Below are positions 4,477 through 47,389 of a stretch of 54,282 nucleotides of DNA, piece after piece. The notes under the pieces are model-generated. The model worked only from the letters and a program-made list of their open reading frames with translations. It was not told the origin of the DNA and searched no databases. This DNA comes from Methanotrichaceae archaeon (GTDB lineage Archaea; Halobacteriota; Methanosarcinia; Methanotrichales; Methanotrichaceae): contig JAFGMR010000090.1 in NCBI GenBank assembly GCA_016927425.1, positions 1 to 54,282 on the forward strand, given 5' to 3'. Position 1 is the first letter of the stretch, and the number at the start of each line of letters is the position of its first letter. Made by a program: the position numbers and the translations under genes.

Positions 4477-6458
4477 ACGATCTTGGGTATGGCATCAACC
4501 GCTTCAGGGTTCGCCAGGGAGGATGTATCCCCCACATCCTTGCCGAGAGCCTTGGACTTGATGATGCGGCGCATGATCTTGCCGGATCTGGTCTTTGGCA
4601 CGTCGTTGACGAAGTGGAGCTCCGACGGGCTAGCAATCCCACCCAGAGTCGACTTCACATGGTTTACAAGGTCCTTCTTCAGCTTATCACTGGGCTCGTT
4701 GCCCGACCGGAGCACACAGAAGGCGATGATGACCTCCCCTTTCACCTCGTCGGGCTTGCCGACGACCGCGGCCTCGGCGCAGCTTGGATGGCTGACCAAG
4801 GCCGACTCCACCTCGGAGTTGCCTATTCTGTGCCCTGCAACGTTCAAGACGTCGTCGATGCGGCCCTGGATGAAGAAGTAGCCGTCCTTATCCCTCCTGG
4901 CCTGGTCTCCCGCCAGATACCAGCCGGGATGGACCTTCCAATAGTAGTTCCAGTAGGTCTTCATGTACCTCTCTGGATCCCGATAGAAGGCCCTGAGCAT
5001 GGACGGATAGGGCTCGGTTATCACGACGTTGCCGCCCTCTCCGTATGGAACGATGTTCCCAGCCTCGTCCATGACCTCGGCATTGTAGCCAGGAAGCGGG
5101 AAGGTACAGGATCCGGGTTTTAGTGGCGTCGTGGGGAGAGGCGAGTTGATGAAGGTCCCAGTCTCCGTCTGCCACCAGGTATCCATGATCTGGAGCTCAT
5201 CTCTTCCGACGTGCTTTCTGTACCACATCCAGGCCTCGGGATTGATGGGCTCGCCAACAGATCCAAGGAGGCGCAGGCTCGTTAGGTCGTACTTGTCGCA
5301 CCACTCAGGTCCAGCCTTCATGAACATCCTGATGGCTGTCGGAGAGGTATACAGCACGCTTACGCCGTAATCCTGTATGATCTTCCACCATCTGCCGAAG
5401 TCAGGGAAATCGGGCGATCCCTCGTACATGACGCCGGTACTACCCAATGAGAGCGGTGCGTAGACGATGTAGGAGTGGCCCGTCACCCAGCCGATGTCCG
5501 CAGCACACCACCATACATCCTCTTCCTTGAGGTCGAATACCCAGTGCAATGTCTGGGGCGGTCCTACGCAGTATCCCCCGACAGCATGCTCTATGCCCTT
5601 GGGCTTTCCTGTTGTTCCAGAGGTGTATAAGATGTACAACCGGTGCTCCGAGTCCACGAAAACAGGATCGCAATGGATCGGCTGATCGGCCACCAGATCA
5701 TGCCACCAGATGTCCTTGCCCTTGTTCCAGGGGACCTCCTGGCCGGTTCTCTTGTAAACGATCTGATGCTTCACGCTGGGGGCGTCAGCTGTCCCCTCGT
5801 CTGCCTGGGTCTTCAAGGGCACTGTCTTGCCACGCCTCCAGAACCCGTCGCAGGTGATGCTCACAACCGACTCGGCGTCCTTCACCCTGTCGCCATAGGC
5901 CTTGGCGCTGAAACCTGAGAAGACCACACTATGTATGGCCCCTATTCTAGTGACGGCGAGCATTGCAATGGACAGCTCGGGAATCATGGGCAGATAGATG
6001 CTTACCCTGTCGCCTTCCTTGACTCCCAGGCTTTTTAGGCCGTTTGCTAGCTTGTTCACCTCCCGATACAGATCCCAGAAGGTAAAGAGCCTCACGTCGC
6101 CCACCGGCTCTCCCACGGCGATGTATGCTACCTTGTTCTTTCTCCATGTCTTAATATGCCTGTCAAGGCAGTTGTAAGACATGCTGATCTCGCCGCCGGG
6201 GAACCACTTAGCATAGGGCGGTTGCCAGTCGAGGACTTTATCGAAGGGCTTATGCCAAGTTGCGTACTTCTTGGCCATCTCCCCCCAGAACTCCACATAA
6301 TTCTTTGAAGTCCACGCCCGCATCTCCATTTCAGTCTTGAATCCCTTCTCCTTCATGTACTGCATAACATTGGAGTTCTCGACGAGCTCCTTCGGGGGCT
6401 CAAAAACCCTCTCCTCCACCATCAGAACAGCAGTCTTTGCTGCCTTTTCCTCTGCCAT
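4473..6458 (-). CDS. acs: Acetyl-CoA synthetase (AMP-forming), copy 3
   Basis: Full-length 661-residue Acs, starting [10 protein letters not shown] with AGGAGG 6 nt upstream of the ATG. It has [35 protein letters not shown] and [10 protein letters not shown], so it should be catalytically competent. It differs from copies 1 and 2 in many positions (for example WRRGK for YRRGK, HAVGGYC for HVHGGYC), so this duplication is older and may have a different affinity or expression. Its upstream palindrome and leader length resemble the other copies, but it has a separate promoter region. Several acs copies in tandem are typical of sequenced Methanothrix genomes. Confidence 0.96.
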
Positions 6459-6591
6459 CTTAATCCTCCTTTTCAGCTTGATGCTACCGGGCCTGGAAGA
6501 GCTAACCGCGAGACACTTATCAACGGCGATTATGGCATCCCGTCAGGGCAAGCTCAACATGTTTAGCTACCGGAGAACATCTTCACGATAG

Positions 6592-6612
6592 ATAATGTTC
6601 ATTATTAATAAG
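6592..6612 (-). promoter_or_regulatory. Promoter region of acs copy 3 with an inverted repeat over the TATA box
   Basis: ATAATG-TT-CATTAT (6592-6605) is a 6-2-6 inverted repeat. On the minus strand it overlaps a TATA-like TTATTAATAATG, about 145 nt before the ATG, the same distance class as the other two acs promoters. The overlap suggests a repressor site; this is inference. Confidence 0.4.
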
Positions 6613-6738
6613 TCTAATGGTTCTCGAATAATTGAAACGCCCCCCACGACGCACCCCTCCCGCGAAGAGGCCTCATCGCTAAAAATCAAATATATCGATG
6701 ATTAGATATGAATTTGCGATTGAAAATAGATCCGATAT

Positions 6739-7965
6739 CTAAGCTATATCTCCAGTCAAGTAGAATGGATTTGTATCGACGATCCTCGCCTTTTGTTGGG
6801 TGCCGAGATCGACCTCCTGCCTTAAGACCAAGCCGAGATAGTTATCCAACCTGGCTTTCATGCTTCCATCACGGCCCCGCTCCGTTACAAGTGCATCGAC
6901 GGTCCGCCCCAAATATCCCTCGTTCCTCTTCGCGGCAAGCTCCAACCATAGCCTTGTCAAGGCCCGCGACCTATCCTTCTTGATCCGCTCTGGCATATCG
7001 TAGAGATGCGCTGCCGATGTATGAGGGCGAGGCGAGTATCTGGTTACGTTTACCTTGTCGGGATCGACCTCTTGGAGTAGCTCCATAGTAGCCTCGTGAT
7101 CCGACTCGGCCTCGCCCGGAAATCCAGCTATACAATCGGTTACGATCGTGATATCGGGAAAGGCCTTGCGAAAAGATGCCACGATCTGACGGAAGTCCTC
7201 TGCAGAGTAGCCTCTGCCCATCGATTCGAGAACTCGGTCAGATCCCGACTGCAAAGGAAGGTGAAGGAATCGGTAGATCCTGGGATCTCTATAGGCCTTC
7301 GTGAGATCGCCGATAATCGGAAGCACGCTGGACGGGTTCATCATCCCCAACCGAAACCTGTAGCGGCCAGGGATATCGATCAATCGCCGAAGAAGCCTTG
7401 GAAGGGTTGAGCCGATGTCTGCCCCATAGGCTGCAACATCTTGTGATGTGAGCTGGACCTCGACTGCGCCAGATTTGACGATACGCGCAACCTTTGCCGC
7501 TATTTTGTCCTCATCCAGGCTGACAAGGCGTCCCCTCGCCCTTTTGACGAGGCAGTAGCTGCATGAGCCTAGACAGCCCTCGGAGATGTTCACAACCCGC
7601 AGTGTCCGCCGCTCCATCCAAGAATTGCAGCCCTCGACCGATGGAGGCCCGATGAGCGCGATCCTCTCCACAGCGGCCCTTCCTAGTATCCCCTCCATCG
7701 TGCGATGCTCTATCCCTCTAAGGGACTCGGGGAGGGCTTTAGAGAGGCATCCAGCGACTACCAAGCGCTCCCCCTGGAGCTGGAGGAGCCTTCTTAGCAT
7801 CTTTCGCTCTGTGCGTGCAGTTACGGCGCAGGTGTTCACTATGATCAAGTCCGCCCGATCCTCAGTTGAGGGGCTGTGTCCGAGCTCGACGAGGCACTCC
7901 TCGGCCTCCTCTGAGTTTCCCTGGTTTGCCGAACAGCCGTAGGTCTCTAAGTAGAACCTCATCAT
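6739..7965 (-). CDS. MiaB-like tRNA (t6A37) methylthiotransferase
   Basis: A radical-SAM methylthiotransferase of 408 residues, probably the archaeal CDKAL1/MtaB-type enzyme that adds a methylthio group to t6A37 of tRNA. The N-terminal UPF0004 domain has the cluster-binding cysteines in YGCSANQ, VNTCAVT and VAGCLSK. The radical-SAM motif is SEGCLGSCSYC, the CxxxCxxC pattern. The C-terminal stretch from about residue 345 (VDALVTERG onward) is a TRAM-like RNA-binding domain. Its ATG overlaps the stop of the upstream permease (ATGA), so the two are probably translated together. Confidence 0.9.
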   Translation of the reverse strand: MMRFYLETYGCSANQGNSEEAEECLVELGHSPSTEDRADLIIVNTCAVTARTERKMLRRLLQLQGERLVVAGCLSKALPESLRGIEHRTMEGILGRAAVERIALIGPPSVEGCNSWMERRTLRVVNISEGCLGSCSYCLVKRARGRLVSLDEDKIAAKVARIVKSGAVEVQLTSQDVAAYGADIGSTLPRLLRRLIDIPGRYRFRLGMMNPSSVLPIIGDLTKAYRDPRIYRFLHLPLQSGSDRVLESMGRGYSAEDFRQIVASFRKAFPDITIVTDCIAGFPGEAESDHEATMELLQEVDPDKVNVTRYSPRPHTSAAHLYDMPERIKKDRSRALTRLWLELAAKRNEGYLGRTVDALVTERGRDGSMKARLDNYLGLVLRQEVDLGTQQKARIVDTNPFYLTGDIA

Positions 7966-40644: not shown

Positions 40645-41562
40645 ATGTATGGAATATTTAAGAATGCGGTCTCCCCGACTACAGGAGAGATCTTCGGAAC
40701 CGGATGGCTTCCACCCATGCCGGATCTGAGGGACATGTCGGACCAGGATCCCCAGATCGTCGCGATGAGCGCGAAGCTTGGACTGCCCAAGGAGAAACCA
40801 GGAAAGGCCATTCCTGCCAGCGTCGACCTGAGGCCTTGGTTCTCTCCTGTCGAGGACCAGAAGAACCTGGGTTCGTGCACCGCACACGCTGCGGTGGGGG
40901 TTGTGGAGTATTTCCAGCGTCGCGGATTTGGAAAACATATAGACGGATCCCGTCTGTTCATTTACAAGACCACGCGGAACCTGATGGGAGTTACCGGCGA
41001 CACCGGGGCATGGCTGAGGAATACCATGGGCGCCCTGGTCCTATGCGGAGTCCCTCCTGAGAGGTACTGGCCCTACAAGGTGGAGGACTTCGAACTCGAG
41101 CCCAGCAACTTCGTCTACGCAGTCGCCGACAACTACGAGGCATTGAGATACTTCTGCCACGATCCCCTGGGATCGAACATCCCGAAGGATAAGGTGCTAA
41201 CCAGGATCAAGGCCTACCTGGCCTGCGGCATACCCTCGATGTTCGGCTTCTTCGGATTCCCATCCTTCGATAGCGCAGACATCCCAGGCGGCATCCCCTT
41301 CCCCTGCCCACGCGAGAGTGCCGAGTGGGGCCATGCGATAGTTGCCGCAGGATACGACGACAAGAAGAAGATCAAGAACAAGAAGTGCGACAAGACGACG
41401 ACAGGCGCCCTTCTCATCAGGAACTCCTGGGGCACGGATTGGGGCGACAAGGGCTATGGCTGGCTGCCCTATGAGTACGTCCTTCAGGGGCTTGCGCTCG
41501 ACTTCTGGTCCCTGATGAGCATGGAATGGGTGGATACGGATAAGTTCGGCCTGGAAGAATAG
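40645..41562 (+). CDS. Papain-like (C1A) cysteine peptidase
   Basis: 305 residues with a complete papain catalytic set: oxyanion Gln72 (EDQKNLGSC), nucleophile Cys78 in LGSCTAHA, His230 in EWGHAIVAAGYDD and Asn260 in LIRNSWGTDWGDKGYGWLP. There is no signal peptide and only a short N-terminal region (about 58 residues) where a propeptide would be. It may therefore work in the cytoplasm or be controlled differently. The TATA-like AATTTAAATT palindrome at 40615-40624 lies about 25 nt before the ATG, so the mRNA is probably leaderless. Substrate unknown. Confidence 0.88.
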   Translation: MYGIFKNAVSPTTGEIFGTGWLPPMPDLRDMSDQDPQIVAMSAKLGLPKEKPGKAIPASVDLRPWFSPVEDQKNLGSCTAHAAVGVVEYFQRRGFGKHIDGSRLFIYKTTRNLMGVTGDTGAWLRNTMGALVLCGVPPERYWPYKVEDFELEPSNFVYAVADNYEALRYFCHDPLGSNIPKDKVLTRIKAYLACGIPSMFGFFGFPSFDSADIPGGIPFPCPRESAEWGHAIVAAGYDDKKKIKNKKCDKTTTGALLIRNSWGTDWGDKGYGWLPYEYVLQGLALDFWSLMSMEWVDTDKFGLEE

Positions 41563-43585: not shown

Positions 43586-44081
43586 AGGGGAGATGAGAGG
43601 CCAAGGGCGAAGGGCCCTATCGCGAATCGACAAGCTGGAAGGGCGGCGCCCCCATCACGCATAAGACGCATCCATTGAGGCATTCGACGAGAGCAATCCG
43701 GCACAATGCTTGCGTTCTGGCTTCATGGCGGGCTCGTGGCGATCATTGCCCGGGGCCTGTCCGAGGATTTGCTCCAAGGGACCGCGCGATGAGATTGCAA
43801 AGAGACAGGGGTGAGATTGCCAGGTCCCGCCTGACCAATCGATTAAGAGGCATCAATCCGGGATGAGGCGACGGCAAGATCTAAATACAACAACACCCCA
43901 ACTTTTAGTTTGGAGATTCGGCATCTTATGCCGAGGATTCGCTCATGGGATTTGACCAAAGCCTGATGAGGCATCATTGGAAGGAGCATCCTAGAGGAGA
44001 GTCCCGTTCTGCCACCGCCCCCATTACCCTGAGGTTGAGGGAGGCCTGTTTTGGACGGTAGGGCCGTCGGTGATGATTTGA
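43586..44081. other. Intergenic region before the amidoligase operon
   Basis: 496 nt with no supported gene. It contains a perfect small hairpin CGGCAT-CTT-ATGCCG at 43919-43933 and a TATA-like AACTTTTAGTTTGG nearby. A GGTGATG near 44069 serves the next gene. I found no tRNA or obvious box C/D or H/ACA RNA. Confidence 0.5.
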
Positions 44082-44729
44082 ATGAACAAACGTAAGAGAG
44101 ACCATATTCCCAAAAAGGATATAATGTATACGCTGAATAATCATGACAGTGTATATATTATTAATGAGAGTTATTTTTACAAGACCGAGCCTTACTACAC
44201 CATAGTGAGGAACGAACATGAGGGGATCGCGACAGTTCCGAGCAGCAGCGACGTCCTCGATGCCTATATCGTGCCCATCTGCATGGAGAAGGCAAGGATG
44301 AACGAGATCCCCGCGTGCGACTGGAACATATCGTACTCCCATGTGGACCTTCCTGCGGTGATCTACGGGTTGAACTACTTCTCGACCCCATCGGATCACT
44401 TCGTGGTCCGAGACCCCGGCGGAGCCAAGAAGGTGATAAAGCACGTGACCAACCACGGCAAGTATCCCTTCTGCTACCAGAGGATGGGGGAGGAGGCCTC
44501 GGTTGCCTGCTGCACCTCCATATTCGGAAAGACCATCGACTGCTGCCAAGAGGCAGCCTCCCTCGCAGAGAGGGTCTACGAGGTATTCCGCATACCCCTC
44601 GTGGAGATGGTGCTCTTAAGGGAGGAAGGGTATCGACTCTCTGCCCTGGCTCCTGTGAAGTACTCCCAGTTGACGGAGGAGGAGATGGCGATGTTGCAGA
44701 GCCTCCTGGAGATGGGGGTGGGCCAATGA
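44082..44729 (+). CDS. RLAN-like protein (free-standing N-terminal domain of RimK-like ATP-grasp)
   Basis: 215 residues. The C-terminal third, AERVYEVFRIPLVEMVLLRE then GYRLSALAPVKYSQLTEEE, resembles the end of the RLAN domain. In bacteria RLAN is fused in front of a RimK-like ATP-grasp ligase. VIYGLNYFSTPSDHFVVR and a cysteine-rich CYQRMGEEASVACCTSIFG occupy the middle. Here the domain is a separate protein whose stop overlaps the ATP-grasp start (ATGA), so the two should form a complex. Role: probably recognition of the substrate or carrier. The family match is by eye and moderate. Confidence 0.65.
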   Translation: MNKRKRDHIPKKDIMYTLNNHDSVYIINESYFYKTEPYYTIVRNEHEGIATVPSSSDVLDAYIVPICMEKARMNEIPACDWNISYSHVDLPAVIYGLNYFSTPSDHFVVRDPGGAKKVIKHVTNHGKYPFCYQRMGEEASVACCTSIFGKTIDCCQEAASLAERVYEVFRIPLVEMVLLREEGYRLSALAPVKYSQLTEEEMAMLQSLLEMGVGQ

Positions 44730-45733
44730 GCCGGCTTGGCATCTTCGTAAACAGGCAGACATTGAGCAGCTCTGAGCAGCTCACAGCACTCATCAGGTGC
44801 AGGGACGTTGCCGAGAGCATGGGCCACACTGCGGAGTTCATCTTCCCAGTGGACATCAAGAAGATCCCTAAGCTCGATGCCCTCTTCATCAGGGCGAACA
44901 CCGACCCCATGAATGCCACTTATGTCGCTTCGAAGATCGCGAGCATGTATGGAATACCTGTGATAGACGACCCCCGCTCGATCCAGATCTGCGCAGACAA
45001 GGTGAATATGTACATGCACCTCATGAAGAGGGGCATTCCAATGCCGCGGACGGTCTTTCCAAGTAAGAGGGATATTGCGCCCGAGTATGTGCAAAGTTTG
45101 CTCGAAGATCTGGGATCCCCCCTGGTGCTCAAGGAGCCCTCGACATCCTTCTCAGCCCGCGTCGAGAAGGCCTCGTCGGTGCAGGAGTTCCTGAAGGTTG
45201 CCCGAAGGTTCCTCAAGCTGTCGGACTGGATAGTGGCCCAGGAGTATATCGAGTCGAGATATGACTGGAGAGTGGGAGTGCTCGATGGGGAGTTCCTTTA
45301 CGCCTGCCGCTACGTCATCCCGCCAAAGACGTTCAAGATCCAGGCGAACGTGGACGGGCACCTGGTCTATTGCGGCGTGGAGAGCGTGGCCCAGGAAGAC
45401 GTTCCAGAAGCGATCACTGATCTAGGCATACGGGCAGCTGAGGCCATAGGCCGCGGCCTCTACGGCGTGGATATCAAGGAGAGCCAGGGCCGCCTCTGGG
45501 TGATCGAGGTCAACGATAACCCCTCCCTTGACGGGGGAGAGGACGATCAATATCCCGACGTCTATCGGGAGATAGTCACCTATCTGCTGGGCGGAGAGGA
45601 GAGGGATTTCATCCCCGGGGTTGTATACGATCCCTTTGATGTGAGAGTGAGCGCCCGCTACCAGGCACCTTTTCTCGATGGAATGCTTACGGGAAATAGC
45701 CTGCCATTTTACAAGATGGACCTGAAGCGATAG
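44726..45733 (+). CDS. RimK-like ATP-grasp ligase
   Basis: 335 residues. ATP-grasp enzymes couple a carboxylate to an amine or thiol through an acyl-phosphate. Visible motifs: CADKVNMYMHLMKRGIPMP, SPLVLKEPSTSFSARVEK, WIVAQEYIESRYDWRVGVLD and the Mg-binding LWVIEVNDNPSLDGGEDD. I start at ATG 44726, which overlaps the RLAN-like stop and follows GGGGGTG. The frame is open far upstream, but that part is out-of-phase sequence of the previous gene. With the GCS2 gene it forms a two-ligase operon. Substrate unknown: peptide, polyamine or protein tail. Confidence 0.88.
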   Translation: MSRLGIFVNRQTLSSSEQLTALIRCRDVAESMGHTAEFIFPVDIKKIPKLDALFIRANTDPMNATYVASKIASMYGIPVIDDPRSIQICADKVNMYMHLMKRGIPMPRTVFPSKRDIAPEYVQSLLEDLGSPLVLKEPSTSFSARVEKASSVQEFLKVARRFLKLSDWIVAQEYIESRYDWRVGVLDGEFLYACRYVIPPKTFKIQANVDGHLVYCGVESVAQEDVPEAITDLGIRAAEAIGRGLYGVDIKESQGRLWVIEVNDNPSLDGGEDDQYPDVYREIVTYLLGGEERDFIPGVVYDPFDVRVSARYQAPFLDGMLTGNSLPFYKMDLKR

Positions 45734-45747
45734 TCTGTCAGCTTTTA

Positions 45748-45770
45748 GGGAGCCGGCCCAACGCCGGCCC
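45748..45770 (+). other. Hairpin within the amidoligase operon
   Basis: GCCGGC-CCAAC-GCCGGC (45752-45768) plus flanking GGG/CCC with a bulge, between the ATP-grasp stop and the next gene. It could cap or process the mRNA and set different levels for the two halves; the T-run expected of a terminator is missing. Confidence 0.4.
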
Positions 45771-45780
45771 CTCATTTGAG

Positions 45781-46302
45781 GTGATAGTCATTAGTTCAAC
45801 TAACAGTTATGATAAGTTCAGCCGGATATGCATGAGCTGCGGGCTTGGAGGCGGATGCTGCAAGGATGCACACCCGCCCCTCACGCAGCATAGGATAGAT
45901 GCCTTGCTCGAATGCGGGGCAAGCCCCGATGATATCGAGCACATTGGGTATCATCGGTTGAAGACGAAGGAGGACGGGTTCTGCGTCCTCTTCGAGAATG
46001 GCATATGCAGTGTGCATGAGGCAAAGCCCGAGACTTGCATTGCAGGCCCATTCACATTCGATATCTCAGGAGATCTCCTGGAGATATACCTGAAGAAGGA
46101 GTCTATCTGCCCCATGGCTGGAACCCTTCTCGAGGACGAGGAGGCCTACAGGGAACAGTACTGCCGCGCGGTGGAGGAGATCCTCCGTCTTGTGAGGGAT
46201 CTTCCAGAAAATGAACTCTCCGTGATCTTGAAGATAGAGGAGCCGGAGACCGTGAAGGTTGGCGAGGTCCGGCTGAAGGAGCGCAATGACCGTCGGAACT
46301 GA
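45781..46302 (+). CDS. YkgJ-like CxxCxxxxxCC zinc/iron-binding protein
   Basis: 173 residues. CMSCGLGGGCCKD at the N-terminus, then GFCVLFENGICSVHE and ETCIAGPFTFD, match the YkgJ/PF03692 cysteine cluster, which probably binds a metal or iron-sulfur cluster. The start is either GTG at 45781 or, less usual, ATT at 45790. GAGGTGA lies 5 nt before that ATT, the same spacing as before the glnK ATG. It overlaps the GCS2 gene by 17 nt. Its role may be a redox or metal-dependent modification of the ligase product; that is inference. Confidence 0.75.
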   Translation: MIVISSTNSYDKFSRICMSCGLGGGCCKDAHPPLTQHRIDALLECGASPDDIEHIGYHRLKTKEDGFCVLFENGICSVHEAKPETCIAGPFTFDISGDLLEIYLKKESICPMAGTLLEDEEAYREQYCRAVEEILRLVRDLPENELSVILKIEEPETVKVGEVRLKERNDRRN

Positions 46303-47389
46303 GCACGAACTCTCAATCAACGACTCCTCGTTCCATCCCCTGCCAATCGCAGACAGGCTGATAGAGAGAGTTGCAGGGGAGATGGTATCTGAGGTTCCCT
46401 TCGGAGACCTATTCCTCTCAAAGGAGCTCCAGAAGCACGCGATAGAGCTGATCCCAAGAAAGCCTGCCGAGAGCCTGGCCTCCCTCGAGCGATCGCTTTT
46501 TTTGGGAGTGGAGCGGTTATATAGGGAATTTTCGGACTGCAAGTTCCTTGGATTGGGCATGCACCCACTGCTAACGCTTCACGAGACCGCACCCTGGGAC
46601 CATCAAGAAGGGGAGTACTACAAGGTCTACGACCGCATATTCAACATCTGGCAGCACGGCTGGCTGAACATCCAGGCCATACAGATAAACTTCCCCTATC
46701 GGGGCGAGGAGGACCTCGTTCGCAAGTTCAACAGGGTTCGATCCCTCACCCCCTACCTCGTCGCGGTATCTGCCGCATCCCCATTCGTCGAGGGAGGGAT
46801 GAACGGGTACATGGACAATCGGCTCAGATTCTACAGGGAGAACCAGAGGAGGATCCCGCTGATATGCAATGACATCCTGCCGGAGAGGCTCGATCGAACG
46901 AGGGATTACGTGGAGATCAATCGAAGGATCTACAAGGACCTAAAGGAGCTCGACGGAGGGATCCTCTGCCGAGAGTGGGTCAACTCCCGCGGCGTGATCG
47001 TGCGTTTCTCCAGAAGCTGTCTGGAGGTAAAAGCGATAGACGAGCAGGAGTCGATACGCTCAGACATGGCTCAGACGGCCTTTCTGCTCTGCCTCCTGCG
47101 GTCCGACCTCAAACTGGAGGAGGAAGAGGATGCTTTGAGGGATGCGCTGGAGAAGGCCATAAGATCGGGCACCTCCGACCTCAAGCCCGAGCTTTTGGCC
47201 CTCTACAATGAAGCTTACAAGGTTGCCGGACCGGACGAGCGCCGCTACCTGCCCTTGATAAAAGAGAGGGTGGAGAAGGGAAGCCTCGCAGAGGTGATGG
47301 CTGAGATCTACCGGGACTCTGGCGAATTAGGCGCAGCCCTCGCCTCCGCAGAGGAGGCCTTGAGGACAAACCGACCCCTGGTGGGATGA
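46286..47389 (+). CDS. Carboxylate-amine ligase, GCS2 (glutamate-cysteine ligase 2/YbdK) family
   Basis: 367 residues, full length for the family. VGTEHELSINDSSFHPLPI at the N-terminus carries the metal/ATP-binding acidic residues, and FGDLFLSKELQKHAIELIP is the matching strand. GMHPLLT and QAIQINFPY follow. Members join the side chain or alpha carboxylate of an amino acid to an amine; YbdK has weak gamma-glutamylcysteine activity. Its ATG lies inside the end of the YkgJ-like gene, so it is co-translated. Together with the ATP-grasp enzyme it implies a product with two amide bonds. Confidence 0.85.
   Translation: MTVGTEHELSINDSSFHPLPIADRLIERVAGEMVSEVPFGDLFLSKELQKHAIELIPRKPAESLASLERSLFLGVERLYREFSDCKFLGLGMHPLLTLHETAPWDHQEGEYYKVYDRIFNIWQHGWLNIQAIQINFPYRGEEDLVRKFNRVRSLTPYLVAVSAASPFVEGGMNGYMDNRLRFYRENQRRIPLICNDILPERLDRTRDYVEINRRIYKDLKELDGGILCREWVNSRGVIVRFSRSCLEVKAIDEQESIRSDMAQTAFLLCLLRSDLKLEEEEDALRDALEKAIRSGTSDLKPELLALYNEAYKVAGPDERRYLPLIKERVEKGSLAEVMAEIYRDSGELGAALASAEEALRTNRPLVG

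Follow-up and report, generated by a model that had tools for sequence, protein, structure and literature searches.

The ATP-grasp ligase RimK modifies the ribosomal protein S6, LysX and ArgX modify the carrier LysW, and in glutathione synthesis a GCS2-type ligase and then an ATP-grasp ligase act in turn (GshA and GshB). Systems of the general kind presented here, in which a RimK-like ATP-grasp ligase is accompanied by a GCS2 peptide ligase, have been predicted before: peptide pathways with both ligases were reportedly proposed by Iyer et al. 2009, and the RLAN domain is said to have been defined in the same study. In the literature searched, a set without Iyer et al. 2009, no mention of the RLAN domain or of its profile PF14401 was found.

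The window, i.e. the whole stretch of 54,282 nucleotides that was analysed from a Methanotrichaceae archaeon, contains four genes in a row that can be compared with these systems:

44069-44074, + strand: GGTGAT ribosome-binding-type site of the RLAN gene (from the upstream alignment of 17 relatives)
44082-44729, + strand: RLAN gene, 215 aa (open reading frame call)
44726-45733, + strand: RimK-like ATP-grasp ligase gene, 335 aa, ATGA overlap with the RLAN gene
45747-45772, + strand: hairpin between genes 2 and 3, without a T-run, outside the conserved unit
45781-46302, + strand: CxxCxxCC/YkgJ gene, 173 aa, GTG start
46286-47389, + strand: GCS2 carboxylate-amine ligase gene, 367 aa, 17-nt overlap with the YkgJ gene

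The positions of the four genes (44082-47389) and both overlaps had been given exactly to the base in the preliminary description, and the HMM search that it suggested agreed with its assignments, as the RLAN, RimK-like, CxxCxxCC and GCS2 proteins all passed the curated Pfam cut-offs (25 bits for PF14401, 21 for PF08443, 23 for PF03692 and 21 for PF04107). The start of the RLAN gene is supported by the GGTGAT-type site, which is kept 5' of it in the 17 relatives aligned; the GTG start of the YkgJ gene is less sure. The hairpin between the ATP-grasp and YkgJ genes is real (folding z-score of -4.25 at 45725-45800). A role as terminator was rejected, since no terminator-like site was found at this hairpin on the + strand, and it is considered to lie outside the conserved unit because in the locus comparison genes 2 and 3 overlap or almost touch in most loci of the archaeal family f15. 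The window gave no match to Rfam, so that a riboswitch or other RNA element was rejected, and so was a defence system because none of the four proteins matched the known and candidate anti-phage defence proteins of PADLOC.

With RimK, LysX, ArgX, MptN and CofF the product of the second gene has in common the ATP-grasp fold, the DWR (DxR-type) and D...ExN motifs and an expected amide-bond chemistry. It matched PF08443 (RimK) with 46.7 bits, and K136, DWR 180-182, D249, E261 and N263 were invariant in an alignment with 29 relatives, bacteria included. However, it differs from these enzymes in falling below all their cut-offs and in having, in the archaea examined, a separate RLAN protein as its obligate partner. 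Its score against TIGR00768 (RimK-family alpha-L-glutamate ligase) was 88.9 bits with a cut-off of 143.4, and the NCBIfam equivalogs gave 74 bits for MptN (cut-off 350), 37 for CofF (300) and 75 for LysX (276), so that MptN, CofF, LysX and the RimK S6 ligase were all discarded as its identity. Its sequence relates it distantly to LysX, MptN and CofF. Actually, a separate MptN-like ligase is encoded on another contig of the same genome (G000:C78:2490-3338), with 322 bits, just below the cut-off of 350. Among solved structures, RimK, LysX and ArgX come closest to the RLAN/ATP-grasp ligase in both sequence and fold.

The product of the fourth gene matched PF04107 with 142.5 bits and is the only GCS2 copy found in a search of its own genome. 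It had been called a YbdK-type GCS2 protein, which is right for the family and not for the subfamily, since TIGR02050 (YbdK-type carboxylate-amine ligase) gave 37.1 bits with a cut-off of 176.4. The NCBIfam models of glutamate-cysteine ligases were likewise all below their cut-offs, so neither these nor YbdK provide its identity. Plant glutamate-cysteine ligases matched it weakly, with a GTEHE motif (G-x-E-x-E) common to both that is conserved in the GCS2 protein, which appears as a distant relative of YbdK and of the glutamate-cysteine ligases. Like glutathione synthesis, the locus combines a single GCS2 ligase with a single ATP-grasp ligase (GshB in that pathway), possibly serial, but here neither ligase reaches a pathway cut-off and RLAN and YkgJ are extra. 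The earlier claim that no gene for a known cofactor fits this set is supported for the two ligases, both being far below every curated cut-off for cofactor ligases.

That the protein at 44082 resembles RLAN was confirmed by profile search (PF14401, 34.9 bits), the aligned part being its C-terminal half (residues 138-206) and only positions 81-148 of the 150 in the profile. The AlphaFold2 model (pLDDT 70) is confident from about residue 58, the first 57 residues being unmodelled. When this model was compared with the PDB by Foldseek, the best 50 matches were all ATP-grasp ligases (best E-value 9.4e-7, probability 1.00, TM-score about 0.48 on this pLDDT 70 model), with ArgX, RimK and D-Ala-D-Ala ligase at the top. 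Among the conserved columns of RLAN there is neither a lysine nor an E-x-N pair, whereas the ATP-grasp partner has kept them all. At the profile level, hhalign gave a weak match between RLAN and the ATP-grasp protein (P 0.013, probability 3.5%), the controls with GCS2 (P 0.15) and YkgJ (P 0.61) being both worse, and a search of the RLAN profile against PDB sequences produced no relevant match. On its predicted structure, RLAN is probably a degenerate, catalytically dead ATP-grasp-like domain and not an unrelated N-terminal domain. Because the model is ATP-grasp-like and the conserved catalytic residues are missing, RLAN and the ATP-grasp protein look like a pseudoenzyme/enzyme pair. If true, this would account for a domain hitherto unassigned.

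The YkgJ protein matched PF03692 with 32.8 bits. Its motif is C-x2-C-x5-CC, with a shorter spacing in many relatives, and cysteines 17, 20, 26, 27, 68, 76, 86 and 110 were invariant in 26 of 26 aligned sequences. Neither its model (pLDDT 57, without a useful fold match) nor the search of its profile against PDB sequences gave a relevant relative. The flagellin lysine methylase FliB has a CX4CX3CC motif that has been likened to PF03692; eight of its cysteines are conserved, and lysine methylation depends on the one [4Fe-4S] cluster that it binds (PMC8598068). The related cysteine motif and the eight conserved cysteines are common to both, whereas the YkgJ proteins are short and stand-alone (156-175 aa) and have no flagellin context. 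By this analogy YkgJ is probably an Fe-S or metal protein, and it could possibly carry out a methyl transfer. The C-termini of YkgJ and RLAN vary across families, so that neither of them looks like a LysW-like carrier.

The comparison of gene neighbourhoods showed that the four genes remain together in related genomes. Searching with RLAN retrieved 16 named loci (14 records of Methanothrix/Methanotrichaceae and two of Methanosarcinales), and in 14 of them all four genes are complete and in the same order; in the other two the contig ends inside GCS2 (L035) or before YkgJ (L047). Within the family, GCS2 is present in 39 of 50 genomes and missing only from the genera g7 and g11. In two g7 genomes there is no RLAN or YkgJ-subfamily gene either, and neither of the g11 genomes has a YkgJ of this subfamily.

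When the phyletic distribution was followed through 394 genomes drawn from the phylum, wide profiles detected RLAN in 57 and the YkgJ subfamily in 48, GCS2 was present in 51 (those above a weak match of 34 bits in G069), and all three occurred together in 48. The YkgJ subfamily was never seen without RLAN and GCS2. GCS2 without RLAN appeared in a single, incomplete genome, and in two genomes RLAN and GCS2 are present but YkgJ is not. RLAN is less than 4 kb away from YkgJ in 48/48 genomes and from GCS2 in 46/50. The Fisher p-values for co-occurrence (<1e-50) are overstated since the genomes are related. Evidence independent of this kinship comes from the changed gene order, the departure of GCS2 in family f8 and the transfer of GCS2 in G481. 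The order is RLAN-ATPgrasp-YkgJ-GCS2 in families f1, f15 and f24, while in f8 it is RLAN-ATPgrasp-GCS2-YkgJ, or RLAN-ATPgrasp facing YkgJ-GCS2. Furthermore, three f8 genomes carry GCS2 on another contig, with YkgJ still beside RLAN-ATPgrasp. In G481, where the YkgJ subfamily is absent, RLAN clusters with f4, the family to which this genome belongs, and the adjoining GCS2 with f15, indicating that a transferred GCS2 sits at a native RLAN/ATP-grasp pair. An arrangement that recurs in four archaeal families is far beyond chance, and the presence of RLAN and GCS2 in all 48 genomes with YkgJ agrees with the suggestion that the co-occurrence reflects one conserved functional unit. Although its genes have been reordered, the unit persists in the greater part of a major methanogen family and in three further archaeal families, and the cells therefore probably need what it makes. 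RLAN/ATP-grasp occurs alone, with neither GCS2 nor YkgJ, in 7 of the 57 genomes with RLAN (f13, two f4 and one f24), and there the pair must have its own function or other partners.

Some loci deviate individually. L100 (G110, f24) has only RLAN/ATP-grasp, while all four genes are present in the two other f24 genomes in which RLAN was found. At L089 (G097, 5823-7813) YkgJ is absent and the ATP-grasp gene is followed directly by GCS2; G115 has no YkgJ match either. At L107 (G370, 4740-6429) RLAN and ATP-grasp are fragmented, with YkgJ intact and GCS2 almost complete, by operon decay or sequencing error.

The preliminary description had also taken the separate RLAN and ATP-grasp genes for a fusion split in this archaeon. 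They are indeed separate here, but this is not peculiar to it, since in all the archaeal loci examined RLAN adjoins ATP-grasp as a separate gene; the fused form was found by the ATP-grasp search only in four bacterial records, from Legionella, Azospirillum, Pseudomonas and Aeromonas. In Legionella adelaidensis (NZ_LR134436) the fused RLAN-RimK gene is followed by GCS2 and then by an N-formylglutamate amidohydrolase gene. RLAN, a RimK-like ATP-grasp and GCS2 are thus found in one gene row as in the archaea, with the differences that the first two are fused, that the FGase hydrolase takes the place of YkgJ and that the GCS2 proteins are 28-34% identical. This was the only match of GCS2 among 72,556 plasmid records, and no GCS2 was found near the fused genes in the Azospirillum, Pseudomonas and Aeromonas records. 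The link between RLAN-RimK and GCS2 spans Archaea and Bacteria, and YkgJ is, in the data seen, an archaeal addition to it. The Legionella replicon named 'plasmid 27' (L132), on which fur, bamE and a gene for RnfH are present, may be a misassembled piece of chromosome.

The conserved linkage of the four genes in many related archaea makes it very probable that they have a single product, a small molecule or a molecular tag. Both ligases keep their catalytic signature residues, so the simplest interpretation is that two amide bonds are formed at the expense of ATP. We give about an even chance to a four-protein amide-bond-forming system in which the two ligases, in series, make a small isopeptide-type metabolite or a cofactor tail. 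RLAN, as the non-catalytic ATP-grasp-like subunit that its model suggests, would pair with the RimK-like ATP-grasp protein in one ligase, which would convert a carboxylate to an acyl phosphate with ATP and then join it to an amine. GCS2 would be a second, independent ATP-dependent carboxylate-amine ligase, and by analogy with GshA/GshB both would act serially towards a small-molecule product. The eight-cysteine YkgJ, by analogy probably an Fe-S protein, would act on this product or its precursor. A broader proposal, which we make tentatively and at somewhat under even chances, is an archaeal pathway so far undescribed, in which GCS2 would work together with a heterodimer of ATP-grasp pseudoenzyme and enzyme. 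Its product would be a new thiol, protein tag or peptide cofactor, which a small Fe-S protein would then modify, and RLAN would be across the tree of life an overlooked degenerate ATP-grasp duplicate that serves as regulatory or substrate-binding half. With two ligases, their partner and a metal protein named, the set can be co-expressed with mass spectrometry as readout, and the metabolite or tag is directly testable.

The unit might instead modify a protein, with RLAN/ATP-grasp adding amino acids to a terminus or side chain and GCS2 editing, branching or supplying the tag. The nearest solved relatives, RimK, LysX and ArgX, all act on proteins, and ATP-grasp ligases are widely predicted to be protein-peptide ligases (PMC4431377). 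We nevertheless find this rather unlikely: no conserved gene for a small carrier or target adjoins the unit, whose flanks vary between families, nor does a conserved gene for a dedicated peptidase, and YkgJ and RLAN have variable C-termini, unlike a C-terminally modified carrier of the LysW type. Clearly improbable is a lineage-specific amino-acid tail for a known coenzyme (variants of methanofuran, tetrahydromethanopterin or F420), in spite of the occurrence of the unit in methanogens and of the distant relationship of the ATP-grasp protein to MptN and CofF. It is far below the cut-offs of both, the same genome has the separate MptN-like gene, no GCS2 match was obtained in g7 and g11, two genera of this family, and the related bacterial set is found in Legionella, which is not known to have coenzymes of the methanofuran, tetrahydromethanopterin or F420 type.

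Two independent pairs, RLAN/ATP-grasp and GCS2/YkgJ, that are merely adjacent would explain why the former occurs alone in f13, two f4 genomes and one f24 genome and why GCS2 is on another contig in three f8 genomes. Yet in those f8 genomes it is YkgJ that stays beside RLAN/ATP-grasp and GCS2 that has gone, a GCS2 of another clade has come to lie at the native pair of G481, and GCS2 adjoins RLAN-RimK in Legionella as well, all of which makes this reading highly improbable.

Just upstream of the RLAN gene the window contains a DUF255 gene (thioredoxin-fold, PF03190; 41597-43585), which among the operon-bearing families is a conserved neighbour in Methanotrichaceae only. A further conserved partner such as DUF255 was rejected because the flanking genes vary between families. 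In addition, a gene for a papain-family (PF00112) cysteine protease, unusual for a methanogen, is located at 40645-41562.
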